A DNA stretch of 64,000 nt from assembly GCA_900696515.1 (NCBI GenBank), contig CAADGK010000133.1:62001-126000 (forward strand), given 5' to 3'. Below, one piece after another: positions 46,686-63,452 of the stretch. Under the pieces are notes generated by a model. It had not been told where the DNA came from and made no database searches. It worked only from the letters and a program-made list of their open reading frames with translations. Position numbers and translations under genes: made by a program. This stretch comes from an uncultured Nitrosospira sp. (GTDB lineage: Bacteria; Nitrospirota; Nitrospiria; Nitrospirales; Nitrospiraceae). Every line of letters starts with the position of its first letter. Within the stretch, counting starts at the first letter, position 1.

Positions 46686-46699
46686 ATCAACCTTCCGGG

Positions 46700-48472
46700 T
46701 TATTCCCCGCCAAACCGTCTCAATGCGGAAAACCACAACACGTCCAATGGGGTCACAAAAATATGGACCAGCACGATAGTCGTCGCGACCACGCCGACTC
46801 CCGCGGTTTGCACGACCCTTCTCCTGAGCTTGACGTGGGACAGGTCGTTTTCGTTCGGCATGAACGGAATCACCGCGAGGGGGAACTGCTGCGTCAAGAC
46901 CACAAGCTGGTCCGGCGTCCGGATGGAATGGTCGAGTGCTTCCGCAGCCGCACCCGCGCCGATTCCCCCGCCCACCGCAAGGAGGAACCCGAGAAGTACG
47001 ATAGCGAACCGATTGGGTTTATACGGCTTCTCGGGAAGACTGGGCGGGTCGATGAGCGAGAAGCGTTCCCCTTTTCGCTGAACCTCCAGCCCTTCCGAAA
47101 CCTTGGCTTCCAGCAGCCTGGAGCGAATTTCTTGATACTTTTGTCCGGAAGTATCCCGGTCTCGCATCAGTACCAGATACTCCGGCTCAATCTCCGGTCC
47201 GCGCTCCAGGCGCGTCGCGTACCCTTGTAACCGTCGCTTGATATCAGTACGGGTATTGCGGAGTGCCTCCAACGAAGACGTCACGGAGTTTAACTGGGCC
47301 TGCAGATTGATATAGGCCGGGTTCTCAGGCCGCTGATGGGTCACTTTCCTTGGTACGCTTCGAAGTCGATGCAACTCCTGTTCAAGGCCTGCGACTTTTC
47401 TTCGAGTCTGTAGCACATCGGGATGCTCGGGCCCCAATCGCTCTGAATCCGCGGCGAGGGCCGTACGGGCCTCCATCAGCCGCTTGGACGCTTCGTCGGC
47501 ATCAGAGGATTCTCCAGCCTCCTTCTCCAACGCGTCGATTTCCTGTTTCATCTTCATGATATCGGGATGCTCCGGAGAGAAATTGGCGGTGGCGCCGGCG
47601 TATTCGGCCCGCAAAGCCCGTAAACGTTCCGTCGAATCCAAGATGCGTTCCCCCGTGACCGATAGGATCGGGGTATTCGGCTTCACGGTCGCCAATTCCC
47701 CTTCGAGATAGGTCTTGCGTTCATCCAGGCCTCGAATTTGCTGATCGACATCCATCAACTCACGCTCGGCTTGGTTCATCAATTGCTGATTCAAGGGCAT
47801 CAATTCCGGAAGCGCCCCTTTTGCCCGATGTTTGAACGAGGCGATTCGTTCGTCGATCTCCTTGATATGGCGAGCCAGATTTTCCGCTTCCTGTTGGAGA
47901 AACGAAGTGGCCTCTTGCGCCTGCCGTTCACGGCTCTTCAAATTTTCTCCCAAGAATAGACTCGTCAGTTCGTTCGCGACCTTCTGGGCCACTTCGGGAG
48001 CTCGGTTCTGATACGACACGGTAAAGGCAATGGTCGCCTTGGTGGCATGTTGCGTACGCTTATCCACGACATCCGCGCTGATCACCTCAACTTCGATATC
48101 CTTGACGAATCGCTTGACGATCTCCTCGGCCGGAGTGTTCTTGCGAAGGTCCTGGTACAGGTTAAACTGTTCCACCACTTTCCAGAGCGTCGTCCGACTC
48201 ATCACCTGTTGTTTGATGGTCTCAATACGCTGATCGGCATAACTCGTGATGGTTGATCGGACAAGATCAGACGGGATCTCCTGTTCCTCGATCAAGATCG
48301 TAGCCGTCGACTTATACGTCGGCGGCCAGAGAAACGCCAACAGCAGCGCCCCAGTCAACAAGCCAAGGCTGGTCAACAGAATTAGTCTGCGACGCCGTTG
48401 AAAGGCCGTGATGTAGTCGCTCACGCCCATGACTCGCTCGGAATGCTGTCCCGGTCCTTGTGACTGTGCCAT
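46700..48472 (-). CDS. Wzz-type polysaccharide chain-length determinant
   Basis: Inner-membrane co-polymerase of 590 residues with an N-terminal membrane helix (LILLTSLGLLTGALLLAFLW), a long periplasmic coiled-coil region (about 170-420) and a second membrane helix near 500 (FAIVLLGFLLAVGGGIGAGA), plus a final hydrophobic segment. This matches the chain-length proteins of exosortase-associated EPS clusters. Separate from, but adjacent to, its kinase partner. Four bases separate it from the upstream barrel gene. Confidence 0.88.
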   Translation of the reverse strand: MAQSQGPGQHSERVMGVSDYITAFQRRRRLILLTSLGLLTGALLLAFLWPPTYKSTATILIEEQEIPSDLVRSTITSYADQRIETIKQQVMSRTTLWKVVEQFNLYQDLRKNTPAEEIVKRFVKDIEVEVISADVVDKRTQHATKATIAFTVSYQNRAPEVAQKVANELTSLFLGENLKSRERQAQEATSFLQQEAENLARHIKEIDERIASFKHRAKGALPELMPLNQQLMNQAERELMDVDQQIRGLDERKTYLEGELATVKPNTPILSVTGERILDSTERLRALRAEYAGATANFSPEHPDIMKMKQEIDALEKEAGESSDADEASKRLMEARTALAADSERLGPEHPDVLQTRRKVAGLEQELHRLRSVPRKVTHQRPENPAYINLQAQLNSVTSSLEALRNTRTDIKRRLQGYATRLERGPEIEPEYLVLMRDRDTSGQKYQEIRSRLLEAKVSEGLEVQRKGERFSLIDPPSLPEKPYKPNRFAIVLLGFLLAVGGGIGAGAAAEALDHSIRTPDQLVVLTQQFPLAVIPFMPNENDLSHVKLRRRVVQTAGVGVVATTIVLVHIFVTPLDVLWFSALRRFGGE

Positions 48473-48476
48473 AGCC

Positions 48477-49703
48477 TTATTGGGAGAACGAGAAACGCGG
48501 TGGAGAATAGGTCACCATGAATGTCGTCGCATGGGATTCAGCCGAACTGAATGCGTTGTCGGTATCACGCCATCGATACACGTACGAGACCTCCGCGCGC
48601 CACCATTCGAGAAACTGCCACGTCAACTTCGGTGCCACACTGACATAGCGGTTGTCCGGAAAAGTCCCGCCTATGGCCGTGCCCGCCTTGCCGGTCGTGA
48701 GCATTCCCACCACATTCAGCCCGCAGGTCAGGGTCTCCGAGAGGTCATAGGCTCCTGAGACCTCGCCCCGATTCGTCTGAATTAAGAGTCCGAATCCACT
48801 GGGAGTCAGATCCCGAGCGAACGTCACCTGCACCGAAGCCCGCTCATACTTTTTCATCATACTGGCCCCCGCCAACCACACAGTCTCAGCGGCATCAACG
48901 GAGCCGACGGGCGTCTGCGTTGTGGAGGACAAAAACCTGGGTCCGCCATACACCGTTCCCGTCAACGATTCATCAAACACATGGGTAAGACTCATATTGA
49001 TACCCGGGAAGTTCGCCTGAAATGGGAGCGGCGAGTCCGTTGTGCGGAAATCCGTATAGGATCCGGTCAGGTGAACCTGATCCCGCTCCGTCAACTGATA
49101 CTGCAATCCACCCGATCCGCCCACCACGCGATGATCCGCCAACCTAGCGGTTTCATAGGTCGTATCCGACAACTGCACACTCGACTGCACCGACAACTTT
49201 TCCGTCACCGTTCTTGTCCAGGTCGGATTAAAGGTCCACTGATTGCGCTGGGCGAACTGCAGTACTACTCCTGTTGCCTGCAATTCACCGAGCAACGTAT
49301 TGTCACGGGTGAATCCTCCGTTGAATCCAAAGACATCTTGCTCTGTTCGATAACGCATCGACAAAGGAGCAAACACGTTCGTAAATTGCCGGTCCTCTCC
49401 CCCGAAATATCCGACAATGTCCGCGGCCAGCCTGCTGCTCACGTCGAGCCGCTCGGTCTTGCCGGACAATTCCGCCGCCGGTGTGATCCAATAGCCATAG
49501 GTGTCGTGATGGGGGAGCGGCGTCAACAGTAAGTTACTGTTATAGACTCCCTTTGTCCCGAGAGATGGAGACAACGACCATTCCGCCGCTTCGCTTTGGG
49601 ATGTCGCGCCGTCTCCCATGAGCCAGATTGCCAACAGGAACGTCCCAATCCTCCGGGTGCATTGAAATCGATCTCCGCCTCCAACCTCCTGCCTCCTACA
49701 CAT
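48477..49703 (-). CDS. Outer-membrane beta-barrel protein of the EPS cluster
   Basis: A 408-residue protein with a signal peptide (cleavage near SEAAEW) and a beta-barrel pattern throughout, ending in the aromatic sequence SPPRFSFSQ. It resembles the outer-membrane proteins often found in exosortase/EPS gene sets. It lies 3 bp after the Wza-like gene and 4 bp before the chain-length gene, so it probably serves as an outer-membrane component for polysaccharide secretion; this is inferred from position. Confidence 0.75.
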   Translation of the reverse strand: MCRRQEVGGGDRFQCTRRIGTFLLAIWLMGDGATSQSEAAEWSLSPSLGTKGVYNSNLLLTPLPHHDTYGYWITPAAELSGKTERLDVSSRLAADIVGYFGGEDRQFTNVFAPLSMRYRTEQDVFGFNGGFTRDNTLLGELQATGVVLQFAQRNQWTFNPTWTRTVTEKLSVQSSVQLSDTTYETARLADHRVVGGSGGLQYQLTERDQVHLTGSYTDFRTTDSPLPFQANFPGINMSLTHVFDESLTGTVYGGPRFLSSTTQTPVGSVDAAETVWLAGASMMKKYERASVQVTFARDLTPSGFGLLIQTNRGEVSGAYDLSETLTCGLNVVGMLTTGKAGTAIGGTFPDNRYVSVAPKLTWQFLEWWRAEVSYVYRWRDTDNAFSSAESHATTFMVTYSPPRFSFSQ

Positions 49704-49706
49704 CAG

Positions 49707-50306
49707 CTACGGCACCATGACGACGTCACCGCGCTGGAGGAGAATATTCTGTTCCAAATCTCTCCCTTTTCGAATATCTCCATAACGGAACGGAATAGCC
49801 TGCTGCGCTCCCCTCACGCGGCGCATCACCTTGATATCGTTTTCCCCGGCAAACGGCGTCAGCCCTCCGGCAAGGCTGAGCGCCTGCAGCACATCGGTGT
49901 AATGGCCGATCACATACTCACCCGGTTTATTGACCCGCCCGACGACATACACCTTGTAGCTGGCCACTTTCGTCACGGCCACGGAGACATTGGGATTCGG
50001 GATATACTTCGTGAGCCGCTTCACCAGATCACCACGAATGTCATCGACGGTCTGATTCTCCGCCTGAATGTCGCCGACGAGCGGAAACGAAAACATGCCA
50101 TCTGGTCGCACGACCACCTCGCGTGTCAGTTGTTCATCTTTCCAGACCGACACCAGCAGGACATCCTCCGCGCCAAGCCGGTATCCCGGCTCAAGCTCGG
50201 ATACTACAGAGGCCGGTATCGCATCGCCGGCACGAACAGGCATCGCCGCCATCGTGACAGCCGCCATCACTCCCACACCTACCAGTGTTCGTACTGAACG
50301 CAACAT
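49707..50306 (-). CDS. Wza-like polysaccharide export protein
   Basis: Periplasmic/outer-membrane export protein of 199 residues. Signal peptide ending MPVRAGDA, then a polysaccharide export domain (YRLGAEDVLLVSVWKDEQLT, VVRPDGMFSFPLVGDIQAE) and an SLBB domain (YKVYVVGRVNKPGEYVIGHY). It lacks a lipobox cysteine, unlike E. coli Wza. It sits 9 bp after the PrsT-like gene in the run. Confidence 0.88.
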   Translation of the reverse strand: MLRSVRTLVGVGVMAAVTMAAMPVRAGDAIPASVVSELEPGYRLGAEDVLLVSVWKDEQLTREVVVRPDGMFSFPLVGDIQAENQTVDDIRGDLVKRLTKYIPNPNVSVAVTKVASYKVYVVGRVNKPGEYVIGHYTDVLQALSLAGGLTPFAGENDIKVMRRVRGAQQAIPFRYGDIRKGRDLEQNILLQRGDVVMVP

Positions 50307-50315
50307 GGCCTCTCC

Positions 50316-52703
50316 TTACCCCCTTAGCTGTGCGAGAGCCTGTTCGGCTTCTCGTCGTCCTTCGAATGGCTCGGGACTCTTGAGCGCCTTGGCAAGATAA
50401 GCGCGGGCCTCATCCCGTTGACCGGACCGGAACAAAGCGATGCCAAGGTGATAATTCAGGACAGACAGGTCCGGCGACTTGGCGACCGCGTCTTTCAGCA
50501 ATCGGATCGCTTCCTCCTGTTGCCCCATCTTCAGTCGAACCCACCCGAGTGTGTCGATGAACAACGGATGCGGCGCCTCCTTCTCGAACTCTCTGCTGAG
50601 ACCGAAGGCTTTCTGCAAACTTGCCGGATCCCCTTTATGATCGACGAGCAGCACGGCCAAATTATTCGCCGCCAGCAGATTCCGCGGATTCAACCGCAAG
50701 GTCGCCTCGTAGGCGGTCACGGCATGATCAAGCTGTCCTTGTTGCGAATGGGCGGACGCCAACAATAGGTACAACTCTTCGCTCTCGGGGTTGGCGGCGA
50801 GACCATCCGTTACAATTTGCACCGCGACATCCGGCTTTTGCTTCGACAGGGACAAGGAGGCCCAGTCAAGCCATGGTGTCAGCCACTTGGAATTGATTCG
50901 AGTCGCTTCCCGATAGTGGAGCGCGGCCTCGTCATACTGCTGAGCCCGCGACAAGACTTCCCCCAGAAGTCCATGAGCAAAGGGATGGTCCTTGCGAGCA
51001 GCCAGGATGGACTCCAGCCTGGCTGTCGCGCGATCCACCTGCCCTAACGCCACTTCCACCTTTACAAGCGACAGTAACGGCTCGGGTTCATTCGGAGCGA
51101 GCGCGATGGCCCTTTCGTAGGCCAGACTCGCCTCACTGAGACGGCGCTGCGCCTCGTAAAACCGGCCCTCGGCCAGCAGCGCAACGGGCTGCTTTCCCCC
51201 TGATGCCTGGCGAAGTCGCGTTAAGGTGCGCTCCGCTTCCTGCCAGTTTTTCGTCACCACATCCAGCGTCATCAACATCTCAAGCGCGGTGACATCATGA
51301 GGACGTTGCTTCAAGAGCTCTTCGAGTCGCGCACGGGCCTGCTGGTGCCGACCGCTTCGGCTCTCCAGTAAGGCCAGTGATCGCTTGGCATCCGCCTGGT
51401 CCGGATACAGAGCCACGGCCCGTTCAAAGCTGTCTTTGGCAAGGTTGATATCGCCGGTCAGCTGATAGGCCTGACCAAGCAGATAATGCACCGTACCCAG
51501 TTCGGGCTGATCATGGAGGACCGTGCGGAACGCCTGCACTGCATCCTTCCCGCTTCGTCGAGTCAATGCCATTCGCCCCACAAGAACCAACCCTTCCGTC
51601 GATCGAGGGTTCTCTTTTAATACCTCCTGAACCTGGCGTTCAGCATCGGCCTGCTTTCCCTCCAGAAAGTCCATTTCCGCCAACTTGACCTTGGCCTCCA
51701 GACCAATCGGCTTGTCTTTGTGCTCTTCGATCAGGGCGGCATAGCGCTGACGCGCTTTGACACCCTGTCCGCTTTGTCTATAAAGCGTACTGAGCCCGAA
51801 CTGGATTGGAGCCGAATGCGGGAGCTGTGCCGCCGCATCAAGCAGCGCCTGTTCGGCAGAAGCCACGTCCTTGTTGTTCACAAAATACTCGGCAAGCGCC
51901 AGACGGCGCTGCTCGCTGGTCGGATCAAGACCGATCGCGTCACGCAACACGGCTTCCGCTTTGTCCCTCGCTCCCTGCTCCATATGGAAACGGGCCAGTC
52001 GCACCCGATGATCAAATGACATCGGTTCAGCCTCGATCATCCGCCGTAACACGGCCTCGGCGCCGGCCGGATTGTTCGCCTGCGCCAAGACCCTGTTCAG
52101 GACACTGAGGAGATCCATGTTCCTGGAATGAATCTCCAACGCACGCCTCACTGTGGATTCCGCATCACGATATCGCCGTTGCTGCCCATACAAGGTCGCG
52201 AGGAGGACGGCGACATCCGGTTCCGTCGGAAACTCTTTTGCAAGCGCTTCCGCCTTGGAAATAACGGAAGGACTCGCCTCTTCAGTTACGGCCTGGGCCG
52301 CGATTTTCAGCGCACGGGCCTGGGGATGATGAGGATGTTGCTTCAATACTGTGTCCGCTGCTTCCACCACATGGTCGGTCAACCGAGCTTCAAGGTAGTA
52401 TTTCCCGAGAGTCATGAGGGCGGCCGTATGACCGGGAACCAGGCGGACCGCTTCCTGATACAGTTGAACGGCATTGCGCCAGTTTTTCTCTTTTTCCTCG
52501 ACTTGGGCGAAGAGATAGTAGGCTTCCGCATCTTTGGGGTCGATCTTCAGCACATTTCTCAGCGCCACTCTCGCCTTGGGATAATTGGCGGCATCCATGT
52601 ACTCCGTGGCTCGGGCGAAGTATTTCGCCTTCCGCTCCTCCGGACCGCCGCACGCGGTCACGAGAACGGCCGCAAGCAACACGATGCCGACCATCTTGCT
52701 CAT
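50316..52703 (-). CDS. prsT: PrsT-type TPR lipoprotein of the exosortase system
   Basis: A 795-residue lipoprotein (lipobox LVTAC, Cys18) made almost entirely of tetratricopeptide repeats from about 25 to 790. Size, lipobox and position between the sugar transferase and the export protein match the TPR lipoprotein commonly present in PEP-CTERM/exosortase clusters. GGAG precedes the ATG; the longer in-frame start adds a charged stretch before the signal. It probably organises the secretion complex in the periplasm or outer membrane. Confidence 0.85.
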   Translation of the reverse strand: MSKMVGIVLLAAVLVTACGGPEERKAKYFARATEYMDAANYPKARVALRNVLKIDPKDAEAYYLFAQVEEKEKNWRNAVQLYQEAVRLVPGHTAALMTLGKYYLEARLTDHVVEAADTVLKQHPHHPQARALKIAAQAVTEEASPSVISKAEALAKEFPTEPDVAVLLATLYGQQRRYRDAESTVRRALEIHSRNMDLLSVLNRVLAQANNPAGAEAVLRRMIEAEPMSFDHRVRLARFHMEQGARDKAEAVLRDAIGLDPTSEQRRLALAEYFVNNKDVASAEQALLDAAAQLPHSAPIQFGLSTLYRQSGQGVKARQRYAALIEEHKDKPIGLEAKVKLAEMDFLEGKQADAERQVQEVLKENPRSTEGLVLVGRMALTRRSGKDAVQAFRTVLHDQPELGTVHYLLGQAYQLTGDINLAKDSFERAVALYPDQADAKRSLALLESRSGRHQQARARLEELLKQRPHDVTALEMLMTLDVVTKNWQEAERTLTRLRQASGGKQPVALLAEGRFYEAQRRLSEASLAYERAIALAPNEPEPLLSLVKVEVALGQVDRATARLESILAARKDHPFAHGLLGEVLSRAQQYDEAALHYREATRINSKWLTPWLDWASLSLSKQKPDVAVQIVTDGLAANPESEELYLLLASAHSQQGQLDHAVTAYEATLRLNPRNLLAANNLAVLLVDHKGDPASLQKAFGLSREFEKEAPHPLFIDTLGWVRLKMGQQEEAIRLLKDAVAKSPDLSVLNYHLGIALFRSGQRDEARAYLAKALKSPEPFEGRREAEQALAQLRG

Positions 52704-52777
52704 ATCGACACTCCGGCCACGACGCTCATGCGGCTTCCCAACTTTCATGCCTGTAGGTTATTACGTAACGTGCTTCG

Positions 52778-54412
52778 CTACAACAAAATCCGAATTCCCA
52801 ACCCGAAGAGAATCCAGAGCGACACGAGACCCAGCTGTCTGACACGAGCGGAAAACGCGTGAAGGAGCAACTCGAAGGAAAAGAAGAGCACGAGTAATTT
52901 GGCGGCAAACATGCCCAAATGCGAGACATCCGCGCTGACCCCGGGAAGCAGCGGAAAGGTCACGGCCAAGAATACCATTAAATAGTCGAGCGGTGTCGTC
53001 TGGAACCGGCTCTCCTGATTGAAGCGAAGACTGAGGAACACCATGACGGCGGCGACGACAAAAAAGACGTTGTGCGCCGTCGCGACGACGGAGACGGCGC
53101 CGGTTCGAGACCCCTCGCAGACATAGAGCAAGAACGTGGTGCCGACATAGAGCCCCCCGCGCACGAAGTAGGGAGCCACCTGCGAAGAGCAGGAAAGGCC
53201 GATCAGCACCACGGCGAACAGCGCGATGGAGACATACCCCACATCGTTGGGAACCGAGGAGGGCAGAAAGACCAGCGCGATCAGAAACAACGGAACCGTC
53301 ACCGCCAGGAACTGGATTGGTACATCCGTGAGCCAAGGGCCGTTGACGAATCTGGCGATGGTGGCATTGGCAAACACATGGCCCGCTCGAGAAGTGGGAG
53401 CGGGAAAGAGCCCTCGTCCCGCCGCAATAAACAGCATCAGGACGAAGAACGCCAGCCCCAGATAGAGCGGCACGATGAGTCTGTCGGACTGCCATCGTAA
53501 AAGATACGCCACGCCAATCATGCCGGCCTGGATCAAATAGATCACGGTCACGGCCTCATAGTGTGTCAGTCCGACCTTGAGCAACTTGTGATGGATATGT
53601 GCTCTATCTCCGACGAACGGCGACCGCCCCTCGGCCAACCGCTGCGCCGTGACCCCAAGGGTGTCCAGGAACGGCAAACCCAGAAGAAAGAGCGCGAGAC
53701 TGGGGCTGAAAGGACCGCGGGATGAGTCCGTCAGCAAGACAGCCAACACTCCCATCATGAATCCCAGGAGCTGGCTCCCGCCATCCCCCATGAAGATACG
53801 GGCGGGATAGGTGTTGTACCGCAGAAACCCCAAGATCGCCCCGAGAAAGGGAACGGTGAGCATGAGCACAGTCGAGTCATTGGACAGATAGGCCAGATAG
53901 GCGATTCCGCTGAGGGTGAGGAACGACAGTCCGCCCGCCAGGCCGTCCAACCCATCCGTCAAATTCACGGCATTTGACACAGCGATCAAAAACACGACGG
54001 TCACGCACATCCCAGCCCATGCCGGTACGTCCACATCGGGGAGAAAGGGGAGCGTGGTAAACCAGATCTCTCCGCCGACCACGACAGCAAGCGCCGCGAT
54101 CAACTGCCCGACTATTTTGACTCGGTAGCTCAGATCGGCCCGGTCATCCCAGACACCGAACAACACGATAATCCCGCACCCCGCTAACACCGAGAAGGTC
54201 GTGACATCCTGAGGCGCCCACCAGGCAATCGAGCCACAAGCTCCGACGGCAAAGGCAATCCCACCGATCCTCGGCACCGCATGCGCATGCACTTTCCGGC
54301 CTCCCGGCTGATCCATGATCTGGAACCGCTCTGCCACGATCCGCAAGAACGGAATCAGAGCCATGCAGACCAGCAGGGCCGTCATAGAACTGAAAAAGAG
54401 TTCGTTCAGCAT
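52778..54412 (-). CDS. WecA/MraY-family polyprenyl-phosphate sugar-1-phosphate transferase with extra membrane domain
   Basis: Starts lipid-linked polysaccharide synthesis by loading a sugar phosphate on undecaprenyl phosphate. The N-terminal 340 residues carry the family motifs VNLTDGLDGLAGGLSFLTLS near 155 and RAHIHHKLLKVGLTHYEAVT near 270. An added C-terminal region of about 200 residues has five or six further hydrophobic segments (from PIQFLAVTVPLFLIALVFLP to the end), not found in ordinary 340-residue relatives. GGGAG precedes the ATG. It follows the exosortase by 31 bp. Confidence 0.87.
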   Translation of the reverse strand: MLNELFFSSMTALLVCMALIPFLRIVAERFQIMDQPGGRKVHAHAVPRIGGIAFAVGACGSIAWWAPQDVTTFSVLAGCGIIVLFGVWDDRADLSYRVKIVGQLIAALAVVVGGEIWFTTLPFLPDVDVPAWAGMCVTVVFLIAVSNAVNLTDGLDGLAGGLSFLTLSGIAYLAYLSNDSTVLMLTVPFLGAILGFLRYNTYPARIFMGDGGSQLLGFMMGVLAVLLTDSSRGPFSPSLALFLLGLPFLDTLGVTAQRLAEGRSPFVGDRAHIHHKLLKVGLTHYEAVTVIYLIQAGMIGVAYLLRWQSDRLIVPLYLGLAFFVLMLFIAAGRGLFPAPTSRAGHVFANATIARFVNGPWLTDVPIQFLAVTVPLFLIALVFLPSSVPNDVGYVSIALFAVVLIGLSCSSQVAPYFVRGGLYVGTTFLLYVCEGSRTGAVSVVATAHNVFFVVAAVMVFLSLRFNQESRFQTTPLDYLMVFLAVTFPLLPGVSADVSHLGMFAAKLLVLFFSFELLLHAFSARVRQLGLVSLWILFGLGIRILL

Positions 54413-54443: not shown

Positions 54444-56018
54444 TCAGTCCGGCACAAACCTCGTCAGCTCGCCCTCAACGGCCGTTGCAAATTCCTGGAG
54501 GCGTTGGTCGACCGTGGATTCGGATTCACCGGGACCGACAAGGGCGGCCAATCTCACCAGGGCTCCGTCGGTCCGTTGCCGGACAAACGCGTCCCACAAG
54601 AGATACCACTTGACCAGATATTCGCTCGTGAGATTGCGATCGCGCTGCTTAAACCAATACAGAACGATTTGTTTTTGATCCCCCTTCTGAATAATGGCGC
54701 GATTGGCTCTCAGCGGTTGCAGCGTCGGCTCCGGGGCCCGCAGTTCTGTTTGCGTCAATGAAGCGATTTCCCAGCCGCCCCCCGGCAAACAACTTTGAGG
54801 CGAGTGAGCCGACTGTCCCTTCCGTTGTGATTGATAGTAGGCCGCATAGAAATTCACCTGATGGTTGGTGACCGAGCGATAGTCCGCAAGCACATAATCA
54901 TCGAACCGAAGGGCCTCGATATACTGCTGCTCAAGGGGAAAGGGCTGGCCGTGCCATCCGTTGATCTGCATCGGAAAATCCACGAAGGCTGGCCGCGACG
55001 GAGGAGTTTCTTCACGATCCATGAGCAACGTGCCGAGCAATGCACAGGGGGCAAACAGCGCCACACTGCATAAATAGGCCGGTCCCGGAAAGAAGAGACG
55101 CTGAGGCTGGACGCTCGCCCCGCCGCCCCGAACTGGTTCCGCTTCCTGATTTCGCCATCTCAAATGCTCGCCCAACGATTTCCCCCGCTCTTGTGTGCCG
55201 AGCCTCTCCAACCACGCCATCTCCAAAACCAGCAAGCCCAAACTCACCATGAAGATCACCCACCCCTCAAAGAGGTGGTAGAACCCCTCAGCAGCGCCTT
55301 TCCCCTGAAGCTCGACCAACACGCCGATCATGCCGATCCGGAAACCGTTAATGACGATCGAAATGGGGATCGCGGAAAGGACCAGCACAACTCGCTTCCA
55401 CAGCCGGTCCTTAAAACAGTACGCGCAGAGCAGCGCAAGAGACAACAGAGGAAGCAGATAACGAATCCCGCTGCAGGCTTCCACGACTTGGAGTTGAACC
55501 GGCCCCAGGTCGATGACATTGCCTTCTCGATAGGCCATCACCCCGACAAGTTGGAGACAGCCGACACCAAGCGATGAGGACCACAATTGCAGTTGACTCG
55601 CCAAGGTCGCATAAAAGAATGTAGGAAGAGGAATGGCCGTCAGGAGATAGCCGAGCGGAAACGCGATCACCTTTGTGCCGCGAGGCCCAATCAGAGTCAT
55701 AGCCAACCCGACCAGGACGACCCAGAGCGAAACATGCAAGACGATATAGAGTGTAGAGAGTTCACCGACCACATAGAGCAGGAGACCCAGCCCGATCACG
55801 GCCAAGCCCCACCATGATTTCTCTGTTGAGAGTTGAGCCAGGTGATGCCGGGATTGCCAGATAAGAAATCCACTAATGAGAGGGACGAACAACCCGTGAC
55901 TGTAATCGTCACTGCCCATCCAGCGACTGAAGAGAAACACAAGACTATCGGCATACAGATAGCCCAGGAATGCGACGATCAGAATTGATGACAGATAGAG
56001 TACACGTATGCTGGCCAT
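54444..56018 (-). CDS. xrtD: Exosortase with C-terminal EpsI domain, XrtD type
   Basis: Membrane transpeptidase predicted to cut the C-terminal VPLPA signal of exported proteins and attach them to a surface structure. The 524 residues comprise an 8-helix exosortase core with the catalytic triad visible (Cys182 in VEACSGIRYLLP, Arg227 in IVINGFRIGM, His248 in FYHLFEGW) and, after about 310, an EpsI domain (FVDFPMQINGWHG, AYYQSQRKGQSAHSPQSCLP). The two adjacent genes encode VPLPA-tagged proteins, the known partner signal of XrtD. Subtype assignment rests on that context and should be checked by profile search. Confidence 0.88.
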   Translation of the reverse strand: MASIRVLYLSSILIVAFLGYLYADSLVFLFSRWMGSDDYSHGLFVPLISGFLIWQSRHHLAQLSTEKSWWGLAVIGLGLLLYVVGELSTLYIVLHVSLWVVLVGLAMTLIGPRGTKVIAFPLGYLLTAIPLPTFFYATLASQLQLWSSSLGVGCLQLVGVMAYREGNVIDLGPVQLQVVEACSGIRYLLPLLSLALLCAYCFKDRLWKRVVLVLSAIPISIVINGFRIGMIGVLVELQGKGAAEGFYHLFEGWVIFMVSLGLLVLEMAWLERLGTQERGKSLGEHLRWRNQEAEPVRGGGASVQPQRLFFPGPAYLCSVALFAPCALLGTLLMDREETPPSRPAFVDFPMQINGWHGQPFPLEQQYIEALRFDDYVLADYRSVTNHQVNFYAAYYQSQRKGQSAHSPQSCLPGGGWEIASLTQTELRAPEPTLQPLRANRAIIQKGDQKQIVLYWFKQRDRNLTSEYLVKWYLLWDAFVRQRTDGALVRLAALVGPGESESTVDQRLQEFATAVEGELTRFVPD

Positions 56019-56143
56019 AGGACAGAATCACTCACCGAATGATGATCAATGGGTCAAACAAGCGACGCCGATCCGAACAAGCGGGGCGAAACCTGATTGT
56101 CTATCGGAACCGATTCGCTGTCGATTGATTTCGGAGAAAGAAC

Positions 56144-56175
56144 GGGCTGGATATCTATGTCGAGATATCCAGCCC
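56144..56175 (-). terminator. Hairpin terminator after VPLPA gene 1
   Basis: A 13-bp perfect stem (gggctggatatct 56144-56156, agatatccagccc 56163-56175) with a 6-base loop, 25 bp past the stop of the VPLPA-CTERM gene. On the minus strand it is followed by GTTCTTTCTCC, a weak T-tract. Probably ends the target-gene transcript before the exosortase gene. Confidence 0.7.
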
Positions 56176-56199
56176 CAGTAGCCGGAAACGAGGAGACGT

Positions 56200-56883
56200 C
56201 TAGACCTTGGATGTACGAAGATTTCGCAATCCGCCAGCGCCCAGCCCGACCAACGAGATCAGGCCCGCGCCGAACAGCAGCACCGCCGCCGGCAAGGGCA
56301 CGGCGGTCAGTGTCTGCACAGAACCTAGAACCGTGGCTACCTGATTACCGTTTAAAAAAATAAGTCTCCAACTGCTCCCATCAAATGAGCCCGTAGTAGG
56401 AGGACTTTGCATGTTGTTATTAGCAAATGGAATCTGACTGTCGAGGTCTAGGGAAAACTGGAATGGGACATTGTTACCAATTGAGCCAGTAGGCTCAGTC
56501 TGCAAATGCCACCGGTCCACAAGATCCCCTACACTATTCGGAATCCCCTGGGAAATGCTCACACCATTTCCTAACCCAGTTCCAGATGCCGTGTAGACAA
56601 CGGTGGAACTAGAGTGTGGCAAGAAGTTTAGGCTGAAGCTCTTCACGACACCCGAATAACTCCCGCCTGTCAGAGAAGTGTTATTGTCTATGGTAAAAGA
56701 CCCTCGCACATCTTGGTTGCCCGCTAAGGGAGGCTGTAATAATTTACTGGCGTAACTTACCACTCCAGTAAATTCAAACTGCATGGTCGCAGCCTGAGCT
56801 GCTGTAATGGAGACCATGAGGGAACACATTACTACGGCCGGCAGCATAAATGCTCGTCTAAGCCATCGGTTTATCATGTGCAT
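56200..56883 (-). CDS. VPLPA-CTERM sorted surface protein 1
   Basis: Exported protein of 227 residues. Signal peptide (MHMINRWLRRAFMLPAVV, cleavage after AAQA), a beta-rich middle, and a C-terminal sorting signal: VPLPAA at residue 195, membrane stretch VLLFGAGLISLVGLGAG, then basic RNLR. AGGAG precedes the ATG. No cysteine in the mature part. Related to the next gene in both ends and size. The mature function is unknown; its neighbours indicate it is processed by the adjacent exosortase. Confidence 0.9.
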   Translation of the reverse strand: MHMINRWLRRAFMLPAVVMCSLMVSITAAQAATMQFEFTGVVSYASKLLQPPLAGNQDVRGSFTIDNNTSLTGGSYSGVVKSFSLNFLPHSSSTVVYTASGTGLGNGVSISQGIPNSVGDLVDRWHLQTEPTGSIGNNVPFQFSLDLDSQIPFANNNMQSPPTTGSFDGSSWRLIFLNGNQVATVLGSVQTLTAVPLPAAVLLFGAGLISLVGLGAGGLRNLRTSKV

Positions 56884-56952
56884 ACCACCACTCCTGCTAA
56901 AGGTTGCCGCATCGTTACTCAATTAGGGACACGTAGGAATGGATAACTGTCT

Positions 56953-56969
56953 AGCAAACCACGGGCCAA
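56953..56969 (-). promoter_or_regulatory. Sigma-54 promoter of VPLPA gene 1
   Basis: Minus strand reads TTGGCCCGTGGTTTGCT, matching the -24/-12 consensus TGGCACG-N4-TTGCW with one difference (C for A). The GG and GC pairs are separated by exactly 10 bases. Transcription would start near 56942, about 58 nt before the ATG. Confidence 0.75.
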
Positions 56970-57264
56970 CCTGCAAAACTCCTATGTCGCTGAAAACAAA
57001 GGCAGCAAATAGAGCCTCTCATCGTAGTACTGTGTCAACAATCCTGCAGCACTGTTCAAATATGTGACGACTGCCAGGTGGGACGGAAAAAACTGCCTGC
57101 TCTGTTCTGTCCTCTCGCTCCTCCTGACAACGGAGGGGCCTGCGAAGGCATTAATCGCATCACGTCGAGGGAGCGAAATCTTTCCCTCTCTCTCACGGAA
57201 AACCCGGAAGCTCCTCCTCATCCTCGGCCTCCATGCGGTTGAGGACTTTTCAACACCCTGCAAG

Positions 57265-57313
57265 TAACAGAAAGGGCGTGAGACCTCGGTGAGGTCTCAC
57301 GCCCTTTCTGTTA
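57265..57313 (-). terminator. Perfect 23-bp hairpin after VPLPA gene 2
   Basis: Two 23-base arms (57265-57287 and 57291-57313) are exactly complementary around a GGT loop; the stem contains agggcgtgagacctc. It begins 17 bp past the stop of VPLPA gene 2. The outer arm on the minus strand is T-rich (CCCTTTCTGTTA), in line with a strong terminator or RNA-stabilising structure. Confidence 0.75.
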
Positions 57314-57329
57314 AGGAACAATGTCTTGC

Positions 57330-58043
57330 TTAGACCTGAAATCCTAGCAGATGTCGCCTCCTCCCTGCACCCAAGCCAACCAGGGAAATGAGGCCAATAC
57401 CGAACAGGATAACCGCAGCTGGCAACGGCACAGCCGTCAGACTGTTGATTGATCCAGCATACTCAGCGCCATTTCGACTCATATCCTCAAAAAGGAGATG
57501 CCATCTTCCCGTTACACCTCGTGGATTGATCAGAGTGGAAAAACTTGGCGGATCCTGGAGTGATGTATCAGAAAATAGGCCCCCCATCACACGGTCAAGA
57601 CGAAGTTCAAAACTGACTGGTGCAAACTCCACTGGTGGCGTACCGTTCAGAATCCGGTCACCTGTAACAGCAGTTACCAATTCCCATCGGTCCCCATTAC
57701 TACCGCTCCCAAGATCAATGTTTTTTGAAATCGTGACGGCATTGGCCCCAGATGTGAAGAAGGACCTATGGGTCTGTCCAGGTGATGGTACTAGAATATT
57801 CAGACTGAAGCCTGTTACGGCCCCAGTGTAACCCCCTAGGCTACTGCCCGGCACAGGAGTCAACTGAAAAGAGCCGGTAACTGGAACCGAGCCAAAAACT
57901 GGGTCTAGGTCTAGATCTCCGGTAAATGAAAATGAATGGTTCACCAGGGCTGCATGCACTGCCGTCGTCGGAACCGAGGGGACAAAAGCCGTAACAGCGA
58001 ATAGGATCAATCCCCTTCGAAGCCATTGTTTGAGCATGAACAT
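57330..58043 (-). CDS. VPLPA-CTERM sorted surface protein 2
   Basis: Exported protein of 237 residues, paralogue of the neighbouring gene. Signal peptide (MFMLKQWLRRGLILFAVT, cleavage near VHAAL), beta-rich middle, and the sorting signal VPLPAA at residue 205, stretch VILFGIGLISLVGLGAG and basic RRRH end; the last 33 residues align position by position with those of protein 1. AGGAGG precedes the ATG. A sigma-54 promoter lies 50-80 bp upstream. Function unknown. Confidence 0.9.
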   Translation of the reverse strand: MFMLKQWLRRGLILFAVTAFVPSVPTTAVHAALVNHSFSFTGDLDLDPVFGSVPVTGSFQLTPVPGSSLGGYTGAVTGFSLNILVPSPGQTHRSFFTSGANAVTISKNIDLGSGSNGDRWELVTAVTGDRILNGTPPVEFAPVSFELRLDRVMGGLFSDTSLQDPPSFSTLINPRGVTGRWHLLFEDMSRNGAEYAGSINSLTAVPLPAAVILFGIGLISLVGLGAGRRRHLLGFQV

Positions 58044-58104
58044 ACCCCGGTCCTCCTGGAAATGATTGGCTCGTGACATGAATAACCTGAACGGAGTACG
58101 ACTC

Positions 58105-58121
58105 AGCAATTCACGGGCCAG
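58105..58121 (-). promoter_or_regulatory. Sigma-54 promoter of VPLPA gene 2
   Basis: Minus strand reads CTGGCCCGTGAATTGCTG, again TGGCCCG-N4-TTGCT with correct 10-base spacing between GG and GC. Predicted start near 58094, about 50 nt before the ATG. It shares the same non-consensus C with the promoter of VPLPA gene 1. Confidence 0.75.
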
Positions 58122-58323
58122 CGAGGCGTGAGCTATCTGACTAAAAACTCAGGAAGATGATCGCAATCCACAGGAGCAACGCTTTCCATTTATGTACACC
58201 GGCGTTCAATCTTGTCTACACCCTGCACAAACCTCCAAAAATATTTCCCACTTGTGCGCCATTCCATCGAGCACCTCTGTCTTGAGCTTGAACATGCCAA
58301 GCCATGAGACCCCTGGCACAGCA

Positions 58324-59586
58324 TTATCGAGCAGGAATCGACACTCCTCCAGCTTGAAGGGCGGACCCTCCGCAAACCATCTCAATCACAGAGAAAAGTT
58401 TTCGGGCCAGGACCATGCGATCAAATTGTTCCATCACAAACCTTCTCCCGTTCCTGCCTAATTGCTGACGCAGCTCCATGTCGTGAGAGAGTTCCATCAC
58501 ACGAGCGACCAACTGCTCCACATTTTCAGGCTCAACACAAAGACCAGCCTGAGCGGTCTTGAGCAGCTCCGCACTCTCTCCCTCTACACCCAGAACAATC
58601 GGCTTCGCCATCGCCAGACTTTCAAAAATCTTTGAAGGTATGACGGTCTTGAACAACTCAGACTTTTTGAGGAGAACAAGACTCACGTCTGAAATGGCCC
58701 AGAACTCTGGCATACGATGTTTGGGTTGCTGATCGAGCATCATCACGTTGTTCAACCCCATCGCGTCTCGCATCCGAAGCAGCGCCTGCCGTTCGGCTCC
58801 ATCGCCAACCATCAAGAAGACAATGTTTGGGGAAGCGCTTAACCGACGGGCTGCTTCCAAGATTGTCTCTAAATGGTGGGCCATACCATGGGTCCCAAAA
58901 TAAGAAACGACAAACTTTCCTTTGAGCCCGAGTTCTTCGGCAAGCCCCGGTGCACCATCAACCGGTCTATATTGAGCAAGATCCACCCCGTTTTTGACGA
59001 CACAAATCTTGTTCGCTTCGATACCTTTATTCAGCATGCAGGTTTTGAACGAATCAGTCACTGGCACAATGCGATCGGCTTTTCGATATGCAAACCGCTC
59101 AATCCATTCGAGCATCTTGATAATCGCAGGATTCTTGATAGCACCTACAGCGACAATTGATTCTGGCCAGAGATCCCGAATCTCCAGGACCCACGGAATC
59201 CGTTTCATCTTACTGACGCAGTATCCGGCGAGACCATTAAAGAACTGTGGTGAGGTAGAGAGAACGACATCTGCCTTCGGCAAAAGGAGTGAAATCATGA
59301 TCGCGGAGCACATGTACGAAATGTAGTTCAGCGTTCGTTTGAAGAAACCTTCGTTTGCGGTCACGAAAGTCCAAACCCTCACCACGTTGATCCCGTCTTT
59401 CGTTTCCCGTTGATAGATCCGATTGCGATACCCCTCGTACACTCGTCCTTGAGGATGATTGGGCGCACAGGTGACGACGGTCACGATGTGCCCATCCTTC
59501 ACCCACTGTCGACAATGTTCATAGGTTCTCGTCGCCGGTGCGTTCACCTCTGGCGGGAAGTAATGTGAGAGGAAGAGAATCCGCAT
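58324..59586 (-). CDS. Family 4-type glycosyltransferase (WbuB-like)
   Basis: GT-B fold glycosyltransferase of 420 residues, cytoplasmic, adding a sugar during polysaccharide synthesis. It begins MRILFLSHYFPPEVNAPATR, has VSYFGTHGMAHHLETILEAA near 230 at the nucleotide-binding domain, and the donor-binding KSELFKTVIPSKIFESLAMA motif near 310. Its first 68 bases overlap the end of the heparinase-like gene, so the two are coupled. The donor and acceptor are unknown. Confidence 0.9.
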   Translation of the reverse strand: MRILFLSHYFPPEVNAPATRTYEHCRQWVKDGHIVTVVTCAPNHPQGRVYEGYRNRIYQRETKDGINVVRVWTFVTANEGFFKRTLNYISYMCSAIMISLLLPKADVVLSTSPQFFNGLAGYCVSKMKRIPWVLEIRDLWPESIVAVGAIKNPAIIKMLEWIERFAYRKADRIVPVTDSFKTCMLNKGIEANKICVVKNGVDLAQYRPVDGAPGLAEELGLKGKFVVSYFGTHGMAHHLETILEAARRLSASPNIVFLMVGDGAERQALLRMRDAMGLNNVMMLDQQPKHRMPEFWAISDVSLVLLKKSELFKTVIPSKIFESLAMAKPIVLGVEGESAELLKTAQAGLCVEPENVEQLVARVMELSHDMELRQQLGRNGRRFVMEQFDRMVLARKLFSVIEMVCGGSALQAGGVSIPAR

Positions 59587-61306
59587 GCCTGTGTGTCTCG
59601 GTGTACTGGATCGTCGCTTTTGTGATTCGGTAACTCAGCTGAAGAGGAAGTTCTCCTGAACAAGAAAAGACTAGCACGGGGTTTCTCTGGCTCAAACCAA
59701 ACTCAGGAAAATAGCAACCCGGCTCAACCTCCATCCGACAGGTAGTCGAAGCGTGGATGGTGGCAATGGCTTCGCCGTCGTGTTCTATCCTGATACTGCT
59801 CGCACCTAATTTCGTGATCGCAAACTTGGGGTGAATGTGAACGAAGCTCTCCATACAACGACTTCCCGTTCCTTCCAATATATCTGCAATCATCCAACTA
59901 CCCTTCCCGTCATATGTGACTCGTCTCCTATGGATCGGCTTTCCACTCAGCCTCCGATATCCGTCATGCGCTCCTTCAAACAAGACGGACCCGTCTTCTG
60001 TCTTGTTGATGTGAGCATGAATTGGTCTTGCACGTCGTGCCACCCGAAACACACCCCATACTTCTGATTGCTCCTCGCCATCAACAACGACAGTATTGTG
60101 AGCCCTCGTGCTTCGTATATAGGCCCGCTCCTGACTTGGCTCATAATCAAACACCCCGCTATCAACAACCACCCGCCGTCCATCGATCGCAAGCTCATAG
60201 CTCAGAGTATCGCAATGAGCATGACCCGGCTGGTAGTCTGGACCAACCGGCCCACAGTCAATGATGATCATGTCGTTTGCCTTACGGCAGGCATAATACC
60301 CGCTCGCCGGAAACGAAGTGACCGTCAGACTCGTCGATTGCGGTGGCTGCGTGTATCCAATCACCCGTTCAGCGTAGTCAAATATCTGAGACGGAGCAGG
60401 AGCAATACCGAATGCAGAGTCGTTGAAGAGAGGGATACCTCCGTCCGGTAGACAGATGCCGTTTAAAAAGTCCAGAGCAGTCGTTAGTTTGCCGATAAAC
60501 TTGTTGGTGATCTCATGTGAGATCACCGAGGGTGAGCTCTTGCTGAGATTCAAGATATCGAGATAGTCAACCACACAGATGGAGTGATACATAGGGCTTC
60601 GCTCAAAGTGCCCACCGTCTGGCAGAAACTGTTCCTCAATTTCTTCCTTGAGAATCTCTAAACCTTTTCGAAACCACCGATCCCCATGAGCGCCATGGAA
60701 ATAAAAGCCAGCAAAAAACAGCGCCACGCCATTCTTGAGATAGTGATTCGCCAAGATGTGGTATTCGATGTTCTGTTCCAGCCACAGGGCTTGTTGATAG
60801 AGACTCTCTACCCATTCAGTCTTTGGCAGCCTCTCGCTTTGTTCTTTGGCCAACATACACTCATTGACTAGAAAGAACTTGATCCAGTTAACAAGCCTGA
60901 GCGAGGCTGTATAGGGTTCCCAAGCATCCTCCGTCCCTGGTGGATTGTGCTGGATCCAGTCGCTAATGAGGAAACACTTGTTCTCAAATGAACGCTGTGG
61001 ATCATGGAGATAGTCAAAATAGTGCAGGTTATAGCGCCAGAGCTTCGGCATGTCCTTGCAAACCCAATCAACATTTTGCGACGAAATGCACTTTGACTGC
61101 CTCAGGAAACAGAAATGCGAATCGTCTCCGGTTGGCGTGGAGACTGAAACACCAGGAAGCATTGAGATGACGCCCGAACGCCTTCCGGTGTCGCCTGTTT
61201 TGATTACAGACCGAAACTGCGGAAGGATTCGTCGGCGAAGGAAGTACGCGACCTGTGAAGGACGAAGATACGCGAGCGTCCTAGCATAGAGGCCCAAGCA
61301 CTTCAT
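59519..61306 (-). CDS. Heparinase II/III-family polysaccharide lyase-like protein
   Basis: A 595-residue protein: an (alpha/alpha) toroid domain (LWRYNLHYFDYLHDP, ANHYLKNGVALFFAGFYFHG, GGHFERSPMYHSICVVDYLD) followed by a beta-sandwich with the signature QPGHAHCDTLSYELAIDGRR near 350 and STRAHNTVVVDGEEQSEVWG. These are the family's substrate-cleft residues. No signal peptide is apparent, which is common for such genes in EPS clusters, where they may trim or modify the polymer. It begins 13 bp after the bi-domain oxidoreductase. Confidence 0.88.
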   Translation of the reverse strand: MKCLGLYARTLAYLRPSQVAYFLRRRILPQFRSVIKTGDTGRRSGVISMLPGVSVSTPTGDDSHFCFLRQSKCISSQNVDWVCKDMPKLWRYNLHYFDYLHDPQRSFENKCFLISDWIQHNPPGTEDAWEPYTASLRLVNWIKFFLVNECMLAKEQSERLPKTEWVESLYQQALWLEQNIEYHILANHYLKNGVALFFAGFYFHGAHGDRWFRKGLEILKEEIEEQFLPDGGHFERSPMYHSICVVDYLDILNLSKSSPSVISHEITNKFIGKLTTALDFLNGICLPDGGIPLFNDSAFGIAPAPSQIFDYAERVIGYTQPPQSTSLTVTSFPASGYYACRKANDMIIIDCGPVGPDYQPGHAHCDTLSYELAIDGRRVVVDSGVFDYEPSQERAYIRSTRAHNTVVVDGEEQSEVWGVFRVARRARPIHAHINKTEDGSVLFEGAHDGYRRLSGKPIHRRRVTYDGKGSWMIADILEGTGSRCMESFVHIHPKFAITKLGASSIRIEHDGEAIATIHASTTCRMEVEPGCYFPEFGLSQRNPVLVFSCSGELPLQLSYRITKATIQYTETHRHADSLPLTLLPARGERTGDENL

Positions 61307-61319
61307 GAATAGAAGGCAC

Positions 61320-63452
61320 CTATGTGAGTGAGTCCACGATATCGAAGGTGACTTGCATCACCTCCACGAGGTCGTCCCAAGGAATTGGAGAGCATTCGCC
61401 TTGACGAATTGCATCCACAAAAGCAGCAACGCAAGCCGTCTGTCCCTTGTCCTGGCTCCACAGGTTCATTGTTTGAAACCCGGACCAACCGTAACCACGG
61501 AGTTTTCTGAAGTTGTCTAGCTGCAGCACCTTACCGCCACAAAAAACCTCGAGCTGCTCTTTCGGAAACGATTTATGCCCATTGGAGAAATAGTGGACCG
61601 TGCCAATTGATCCATCCTCAAATCGTAACGTGATCGTGACTTTGTCATCACCCGCCGACATCGCCTGAACAGCAACAATCGGTGAAGCAGCGAGAAACCG
61701 GAGCAGGTCGACAAAATGGCAGCCTTCCCCAATGATCCGCCCTCCTCCGATCGATCGGTCCTGAGTCCAGTGGTCACGGGGAATATGGCCCGCATTAATC
61801 GTCATGACAAAGGTCTTGGGTTCCGCCACTCCATTCAACAACTGTTTCATGCGCTGGACTTGTGGGGCAAATCGACGATTGAACCCAACCATCATGAGCG
61901 GAGACGATGGCTGTTGTCTGATACAAGTGTCATAGACCTGACAGAGTGTCGTCAGTTCTTCTCGCGTGATTGCTAACGGCTTTTCAAGAAACACATGCTT
62001 GCCCGCCTTTAAGGCTTCAGCAGCGAGTGCTGCATGGCTATCGTGCCTCGTCGCGATGATGACAGTATTGTTATCCGGAGATTCAATTACAGTCCTACTA
62101 TCGCTCGTGATTTCAGAAAATCCAAACTTGCTTCCCGCATGAGCAGCACTCACACCTGTGCTACTCGCAACCGTTCTGAAGGCGACTCCTGTCTTCTTAA
62201 AAGCCGGCAACAGCACTTGCGTAGCATAGTTTCCTGCCCCAATGCATCCGACGACCGGGGTAGCAGGAGAACGTTCCCCCTCGAGCGGTTCCTCCAATCT
62301 GGCAATCGTTCTTTGCAGTAATCGACTGTGAGAAAACGTATCTGGTTCAGGATATTGCAAGATAATCCCGAGCGAGGGAGATCGGCTTGCGATCAAATCA
62401 TAGGCGGTCGTAGCCTGCTCGAAGGGAATTCGATGCGAGATGAGTACATCTGTCTGAAGACGGCCATCAGCCAACATATCGAGAACCGCCTCAAAGTTAC
62501 GCTGCTCCGTCCAGCGAACGTAGCCAATAGGATAGTCTTGTCCATTGTCCTCATAGGAGCTGTCGTAGCGCCCAGGTCCGTAGGAGCAGGACACTTGAAA
62601 ACTCAGTTCCTTTTCGTAGAAGTCCGCACGAGAGAGTTCCAGCCCTGTGACCCCGACAAGCACAATGCGCCCTCGTTTCCGACACATTTGTGCCGCTTGA
62701 TGCACCGGCTCATTGCTCTTCGTGGAAGCTGTGATGATCACCGCATCCACACCGCGGCCACGGGAAAAGGCCATCGCAGCCCCTAGCGGATCGGCATTCT
62801 GATTCAGATCAACTGTTTGCGCTCCCAGTTTTTGAGCAAGCGCTAACTTACTGATGTCATAATCCAATCCCAGTACGCGACATCCATGGGCCTTCAACAA
62901 CTGAACGGTCATCAGTCCAATCAGTCCCAGCCCCGTCACCACCACAGCCTCACCCAGAGTTGGCTGAATCAATCGGATTCCTTGTAATCCAATCGCCCCG
63001 ATCACGGTGAATGCCGCAGCCTCATCACTCACGGAATCCGGGACTGTTGCACACAGATTCTTGGGAACGCAGACAATCTCTGCATGTTTGCCGTTCGACG
63101 CTACTCGATCTCCGACTGAAACTCCTGTCACTCCCCGACCAACCTCAAGCACCGCCCCCACATTGCAGTACCCCATCGGCAATGGCTGATCCAGCTTGTT
63201 GCGGACGGCATCCAGCGTCGGCAGCACCCCATCGGTCTTGACCTTGTCGAGAACCATCCGAACTTTCTCCGGCTGCTGACGGGCTTTATCGAGCAGGTTG
63301 GCCTTCCCGAATTCGACGAGCATGCGCTCTGTCCCTACAGAAACCAGAGACCTTGTCGTTCGAATGAGCAGGTGATTCGCCCTAGCTTTTGGGCTTGGGA
63401 TCTCAGCGAGACTGGTCCCTCCAGAGGCAAGGTTTTGCAAGACTTGTTTCAT
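61320..63452 (-). CDS. Bi-domain oxidoreductase (medium-chain dehydrogenase plus Gfo/Idh/MocA)
   Basis: A 710-residue protein with two NAD-type domains. Residues 1-370 are a zinc-type alcohol dehydrogenase-like domain (GYCNVGAVLEVGRGVTGVSV, VVVTGLGLIGLMTVQLLKAH); residues 395-700 are a Gfo/Idh/MocA domain (VVGCIGAGNYATQVLLPAFK, AGKHVFLEKPLAITREEL, GHIPRDHWTQ). Such fusions occur in surface-polysaccharide clusters and probably make a modified sugar. First gene of the heparinase-glycosyltransferase run. Substrate unknown. Confidence 0.9.
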   Translation of the reverse strand: MKQVLQNLASGGTSLAEIPSPKARANHLLIRTTRSLVSVGTERMLVEFGKANLLDKARQQPEKVRMVLDKVKTDGVLPTLDAVRNKLDQPLPMGYCNVGAVLEVGRGVTGVSVGDRVASNGKHAEIVCVPKNLCATVPDSVSDEAAAFTVIGAIGLQGIRLIQPTLGEAVVVTGLGLIGLMTVQLLKAHGCRVLGLDYDISKLALAQKLGAQTVDLNQNADPLGAAMAFSRGRGVDAVIITASTKSNEPVHQAAQMCRKRGRIVLVGVTGLELSRADFYEKELSFQVSCSYGPGRYDSSYEDNGQDYPIGYVRWTEQRNFEAVLDMLADGRLQTDVLISHRIPFEQATTAYDLIASRSPSLGIILQYPEPDTFSHSRLLQRTIARLEEPLEGERSPATPVVGCIGAGNYATQVLLPAFKKTGVAFRTVASSTGVSAAHAGSKFGFSEITSDSRTVIESPDNNTVIIATRHDSHAALAAEALKAGKHVFLEKPLAITREELTTLCQVYDTCIRQQPSSPLMMVGFNRRFAPQVQRMKQLLNGVAEPKTFVMTINAGHIPRDHWTQDRSIGGGRIIGEGCHFVDLLRFLAASPIVAVQAMSAGDDKVTITLRFEDGSIGTVHYFSNGHKSFPKEQLEVFCGGKVLQLDNFRKLRGYGWSGFQTMNLWSQDKGQTACVAAFVDAIRQGECSPIPWDDLVEVMQVTFDIVDSLT

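Follow-up and report, generated by a model that had tools for sequence, protein, structure and literature searches.

A 64,000-nucleotide stretch of contig CAADGK010000133.1 (the window) carries an exosortase gene of the XrtD type, two adjacent genes for exported proteins ending in VPLPA-like sorting tails (the targets), and a set of exopolysaccharide (EPS) genes. Comparison of these sequences with related Nitrospira genomes suggests that the locus is probably a sigma-54-controlled, matrix-linked exosortase display system with exchangeable exposed domains, sorting and display being the predicted parts. A more specific model, about as likely as not, is that of a fixed display socket into which discrete surface domains, exchanged horizontally, would be inserted between the sigma-54 promoter and signal peptide upstream and the tail, exosortase and matrix operon downstream. 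Enzyme type, tail, promoter conservation, adjacency and mosaicism of the mature protein bodies were all computed in this analysis. An earlier sequence-based annotation of positions 54444-58121 (the original prediction) was right about the enzyme, the tails and the EPS operon and missed the sigma-54 promoters and the recombining bodies, which are new here together with the dedicated-looking enzyme. Nitrospira is an important nitrifier living in flocs and biofilms. Exosortase systems usually have many scattered targets, and the role of the sorted proteins is mostly obscure; a genome whose single exosortase adjoins two targets with a defined promoter makes a small testable pairing.

The exosortase, its targets and their promoters

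The window is part of a 4.58 Mb draft genome, which was searched by pattern and by profile. The exosortase is XrtD, as originally predicted: it scored 542 bits against TIGR04152 (curated cut-off 400), and the second-best subtype model, XrtW, gave 324 bits against its own cut-off of 425. The gene and both target open reading frames (ORFs) were found where they had been placed, and the Cys-Arg-His triad, lying within EACSG, NGFRIG and HLFEGW, is not only intact but invariant across 20 aligned XrtDs. The genome search recovered no other exosortase. Each target, one of two paralogues as originally predicted, starts with a signal peptide and ends in a VPLPAA-helix-basic tail; the two are 41% identical overall and 73% over the 33-residue tails. 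Their reported ORF starts are too early in view of the sigma-54 boxes, the -12 box of target 2 overlapping its TTG start, and the likely starts at ATG 56883 and ATG 58043 follow GGAG-type ribosome sites.

The tails are a VPLPA-type signal that falls short of the curated VPLPA-CTERM model TIGR03370, for which target 1 scored 11.3 bits (cut-off 25.35) and target 2 was unlisted. This model has 25 positions, and the window tails extend further as GLGAGGLRNLR. The VPLPA-CTERM architecture (motif, helix, basic C-terminal end, exported protein, XrtD-bearing genome) is present in both targets. VPL/FPA-readable DNA sites numbered 42 in the genome and 83 in a reversed control; the target tails are not due to chance, since merely three of the 42 sites encode a C-terminal motif-helix-basic tail. 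These are the two window targets and a third exported protein (L030 853-1581, at G000:C101:73889), which ends in a shorter tail, VPLPAAALLFVPGLLGIGLLASRKRL, has no sigma-54-like site within 260 bp upstream and is possibly a further XrtD substrate under other control. The genome-wide set of VPLPA-CTERM targets that had been anticipated is therefore reduced to this one further tail, with none above the TIGR03370 cut-off.

Both targets are preceded by a sigma-54 -24/-12 box (TGGCCCG-N4-TTGCT). Strict sites of this kind number two in the window, one for each target, and three in the genome. Alignment of 29 targets on the box uncovered conserved upstream blocks: TACA-A-TTGAAC, an ACAC element and TTAGTTTTCAG. 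A search of 39 genomes for the composite TTGAAC-N62-92-TGGYCYRNNNNTTGCT gave 18 occurrences (2 in the reversed control), and 15 of the 18 precede a long-tail target, two such targets being unlinked to xrtD (G004:C40 and G019:C27). Within the window genome the composite occurs twice, solely before the two targets. RpoN is encoded in this genome, as are about twenty NtrC-type activators. The third strict site (L082, G000:C11:32042) lies before a gene for an exported ABC substrate-binding-like protein and has no upstream TTGAAC block.

XrtD was compared across 80 loci from public genomes, nearly all of them contigs of metagenome-assembled genomes (MAGs); the relatives of the window enzyme came from Nitrospira genomes. 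A target was counted if a tail of the same type lay within 3.5 kb upstream of xrtD, and only loci with enough sequence were testable. Such a target was present in 31 of the 33 testable loci whose XrtD is at least 55.5% identical to that of the window, and in none of 39 loci with less similar XrtDs. On the XrtD tree the trait is confined to one clade (100/98 support; 33 of 35 rows), to which ‘Candidatus Nitrospira defluvii’ belongs; one of the two rows without it ends at a contig edge and the other has a 52-residue tail remnant. PrsT-like, Wza-like, outer-membrane and Wzz-like genes follow downstream in 28 of the 28 loci with enough sequence, and the sugar transferase in 26. The tails, looked for in orthologues of the targets, thus persist, and the grouping of target, XrtD and EPS genes, which had been thought unusual, is standard for one Nitrospira XrtD clade. 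The tail remnant (G019:C5:34965-35063, beside L071/L138) is an adjacent target shrunk to a 52-residue frame with its tail kept; the same genome has an intact target with the same promoter, unlinked to xrtD, on contig C27.

A phylogenetic profile of 39 related genomes combined XrtD and tail searches, with long tails defined by E below 1e-12. The long tail was present in 14 of the 15 genomes with the window XrtD type, the fifteenth locus ending at a contig edge, and in none of the 24 without it. Genomes in which this type is the only XrtD had one to five tails, all kinds counted, at E 1 (exactly one in two genomes), against 5-34 where a second, about 50% identical XrtD is encoded, and a PEP-CTERM search agreed with this. 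Because of this low number, the window-type enzyme looks dedicated to one or few substrates. The second XrtD type, found in several Nitrospira genomes (L074-L078, L080), has no long-tailed target beside it and accompanies up to 34 short PEP-CTERM-like tails clustered elsewhere in the genome.

Mosaic bodies in a conserved frame

Mature bodies were compared over all locus pairs, taking the best body identity where several target copies were present. Protein identities of the sugar transferase, PrsT, Wza, outer-membrane and Wzz genes follow those of XrtD (r 0.85-0.93); for the bodies r is 0.47. At XrtD identities of 80% or more, the operon proteins share at least 69% and the tails a median of 100%, but the bodies only a median of 44%, and 81% of these pairs have bodies less than 60% identical. 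The body tree disagrees with the XrtD tree, and either tree is rejected by the other alignment, in a test that paralogues inflate. Within the window's own clade, bodies that align as variants of one domain fall into discrete types, 79-92% identical within and 39-55% between types, at XrtD identities of 81-94%; promoter, tail and downstream DNA of these relatives are 72-89% identical.

The breaks in identity coincide with the signal-peptide end and with VPLPA. Between L125 and L129, sliding DNA identity is 0.80-0.95 over promoter and signal peptide, drops to 0.43-0.63 over the body and rises again at VPLPA. L124 and L152 give the mirror image, with a value near 0.5 at the promoter, 0.82-0.95 over the body and a renewed drop past the tail. 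Compared with its relatives, window target 1 has a DNA identity of 0.43-0.44 in the body and 0.75-0.94 in the tail, intergenic stretch and leader. Its body has no close relative (best 44%) and a third-position GC of 0.48, the values for its tail and for xrtD being 0.77 and 0.65.

Four-fold sites point to transfer in individual cases. The L124 and L152 bodies match at 67 of 94 such sites and their xrtD genes at 74 of 196 (p 1e-7); four-fold identity is 0.71 in the body versus 0.31-0.44 in six operon genes, and protein identity 91% versus 72-82% for the operon proteins. As four-fold identity of the body exceeds that of xrtD, we conclude that this body moved between lineages. For L142 and L129, matches are 17 of 45 in the bodies and 177 of 247 in xrtD (p 2e-5), and four-fold identity so far below that of xrtD suggests that one of the two bodies was replaced. 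Judged by these sequences, the mature body looks like a recombining cassette, with promoter, tail and enzyme staying in place.

A different history would begin with a tandem array of diverged paralogues in the ancestor; deletions between conserved promoters and tails would have left lineages with different members, with no exchange between them. Tandem targets, two or three, do occur in several loci, the window having two, and paralogues inflate the tree conflict. We nevertheless find this unlikely, given the four-fold excess of the L124/L152 body over six operon genes and the different body types carried by the single-copy loci L123, L125 and L142. The predominance of MAG contigs could suggest that the apparent swapping arose from faulty metagenome binning or assembly, but this is highly improbable: body types recur in MAGs of different projects with conserved DNA flanking the body within one contig, and the flanking operon genes have no such mosaic.

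The tail protein is, with few exceptions, 93-100% identical in the compared pairs despite diverging four-fold sites and changing bodies, which indicates selection on the protein signal. It might be argued that the tail merely anchors the targets, which would remain periplasmic proteins of the inner membrane with XrtD acting elsewhere in EPS assembly; the tails do fall short of the curated model, and processing is a prediction. However, such conservation goes far beyond what an anchor requires, and the tail class and the window-type XrtD have a common phylogenetic profile, making a plain anchor improbable.

Several points weigh against a dedicated display system with exchanged bodies. The test pairs were picked post hoc among 528; after correction only p values near 1e-7 and 2e-6 are clearly significant, and 2e-5 is borderline. 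The data are mostly metagenome assemblies, and hidden paralogy or differential loss of tandem paralogues could be the source of part of the mosaic. Besides the lack of any TIGR03370 match above cut-off in the whole genome, no PrsR (TIGR02915) was found above cut-off in it (best 433 bits versus 502.6). No strict sigma-54 box is present in the N. defluvii subclade or in several second target copies. Finally, the third VPLPA protein may be an XrtD substrate, so dedication may not be absolute.

A possible display mechanism and related systems

In an AlphaFold2 model of a target (pLDDT 77), a beta-rich body passes directly into the C-terminal helix. Foldseek gave no match to this model at E 0.001, and the best structural-aligner match, an OmpA barrel (Z 8.8), was tied with designed and lipocalin-like barrels. 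As these are generic small barrels, we limit ourselves to predicting that the body is small and beta-rich. Matches of the target in a PDB sequence search were chance only, extending into the hydrophobic tail.

It is very improbable that the targets are PepA-type floc proteins acting as PepA does in Zoogloea and Aquincola. The idea draws on weak whole-protein matches to NF033554 (best 2.5e-6 among 16 members) and on the RpoN dependence of pepA in Aquincola (PMC9850573). However, the window targets score 15.8 and 27.2 bits against an NF033554 cut-off of 80, and PepA homology was rejected once the tail was removed, ten tail-less bodies matching no NCBIfam model at E 0.1. A PepA-like role in the matrix is possible. 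Aquincola pepA likewise combines an exosortase-type target, a -24/-12 promoter and a link to exopolysaccharide and flocs (PMC9850573); the bodies are not homologous at profile level, and the system there is XrtA-type rather than XrtD.

In the proposed display system, an enhancer-dependent sigma-54 promoter would turn on each target gene, Sec would export the product and its C-terminal helix would retain it in the inner membrane. XrtD, encoded next door, would cleave it at the VPLPA motif. The body, possibly joined to a glycan or lipid, would then be passed to the surface or to the exopolysaccharide, the assembly of which is encoded further along the same operon. We infer Sec export, tail recognition by XrtD, VPLPA cleavage and matrix delivery from established knowledge of exosortases. 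The frame of promoter, signal peptide, tail, xrtD and EPS operon would be inherited across Nitrospira, and the beta-rich body swapped for homologous variants via recombination inside the conserved ends, giving close relatives different surface proteins. If this is true, a matrix-linked surface protein varies from one Nitrospira strain to another, and the swapping might serve escape from phages or grazers, or kin recognition in flocs. The mosaic bodies are a reason to seek selection by phages, grazers or partners in Nitrospira.

The ‘Nitrospira multiformis’ of the earlier work on sigma-54 and PEP-CTERM genes is presumably the betaproteobacterium Nitrosospira. Haft and colleagues described sigma-54 motifs in front of PEP-CTERM genes, which in the set of genomes they covered were confined to Proteobacteria (PMC1569441); the target promoters would carry this sigma-54 logic of exosortase systems past Proteobacteria. 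The PEP-CTERM/EpsH system with PrsK/PrsR/PrsT described there resembles ours in its EPS locus, PrsT-like protein, sigma-54 box, and targets that are single-gene transcription units with a long upstream region. It has many scattered targets and is proteobacterial, whereas the present locus is from Nitrospirota and its genome has no PrsR above cut-off. Its activator motif 1 has 17 nt ending in TTTACA (PMC1569441); here the conserved upstream element is the TACA-A-TTGAAC block rather than a demonstrated motif 1. With the XrtD/VPLPA-CTERM system (TIGR04152, TIGR03370), the locus shares an EpsI-fused exosortase above cut-off and VPLPA-helix-basic tails on predicted substrates, and differs in the extended tails below TIGR03370, the few substrates adjoining the enzyme and the recombining bodies. 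The VARTIG modules of Thermococcales also join a secreted protein and a putative C-terminal sorting signal to an exposed domain made hypervariable by interlineage recombination (PMC8416519); those are archaeal, large Ig-domain proteins in shuffled islands, whereas here a small beta-rich body sits in a fixed bacterial locus beside the sorting enzyme. Our literature search found no paper joining XrtD or VPLPA-CTERM with exosortase, the XrtD classification (Haft 2012), which may cover one-target exosortases, lying outside that search; the papers found to mention Nitrospira and exosortase do not cover exosortases of Nitrospira proper.

Neighbouring polysaccharide genes and hairpins

The predicted EPS machine is real and conserved, although its genes, at 44.4-54.4 kb and 58.3-63.5 kb, lie outside 54444-58121 (Table 1). 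Five of its products score below the cut-offs of the XrtA-system equivalogs (PrsT-like 295 versus 312, Wzz-like 261 versus 279, Wza-like 139 versus 180, kinase 184 versus 231, ATPase 235 versus 325) and are for that reason taken as relatives of those families.

Table 1. Features of the XrtD locus, in window coordinates
Feature	Position	Strand	Basis or remark
TIGR03015-like ATPase with TPR repeats	44418-45824	-	profile and domain matches
Tyrosine autokinase of the EPS set	45858-46736	-	profile match
Wzz-like chain-length protein	46700-48472	-	profile match; 28/28 loci
TIGR03016-like outer-membrane protein	48477-49703	-	profile match; 28/28 loci
Wza-like polysaccharide export protein	49707-50306	-	profile and domain matches; 28/28 loci
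PrsT-like TPR protein	50316-52748	-	profile match; 28/28 loci
GT4 / WecA-like sugar-phosphate transferase	52778-54412	-	PF00953; directly after xrtD; position kept in 26/28 loci
XrtD, exosortase (EpsH) domain fused to EpsI/DUF3485 domain	54444-56018	-	TIGR04152; PF09721 and PF11984
Terminator-like hairpin, target 1/xrtD gap	56144-56175	-	13 pairs; hairpin class overall not above chance in scan
Target 1: signal peptide, beta-rich body (predicted), class-I tail	56200-56883	-	ORF reported 56200-56922; likely start ATG 56883
Sorting tail of target 1, VPLPAAVLLFGAGLISLVGLGAGGLRNLRTSKV	56203-56301	-	tail profile E 4.2e-19
Composite promoter of target 1, TTGAAC block to sigma-54 box TGGCCCGTGGTTTGCT (56968-56953)	56953-57059	-	
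Long perfect hairpin after target 2	57265-57313	-	z -10.9; unique in genome
Target 2: paralogue of target 1, class-I tail	57330-58043	-	ORF reported 57330-58109; likely start ATG 58043
Sorting tail of target 2, VPLPAAVILFGIGLISLVGLGAGRRRHLLGFQV	57333-57431	-	tail alignment and tail profile
Composite promoter of target 2, TTGAAC block to sigma-54 box TGGCCCGTGAATTGCT (58120-58105)	58105-58209	-	
Glycosyltransferase upstream of targets	58324-59586	-	

The long hairpin after target 2 is probably a terminator. The gap between the targets was considered as a repeat and rejected, being unique in the genome except for its own hairpin. Further upstream, a zinc-type dehydrogenase fused to a GFO/IDH/MocA oxidoreductase (61320-63452, minus strand) adjoins a heparinase II/III-like protein (59519-61306). 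Elsewhere in the window, a 1226-residue ORF (36967-40647, plus strand) seems, by eye, to join a thioredoxin-domain/DUF255-like part to an aldo/keto-reductase-like part.

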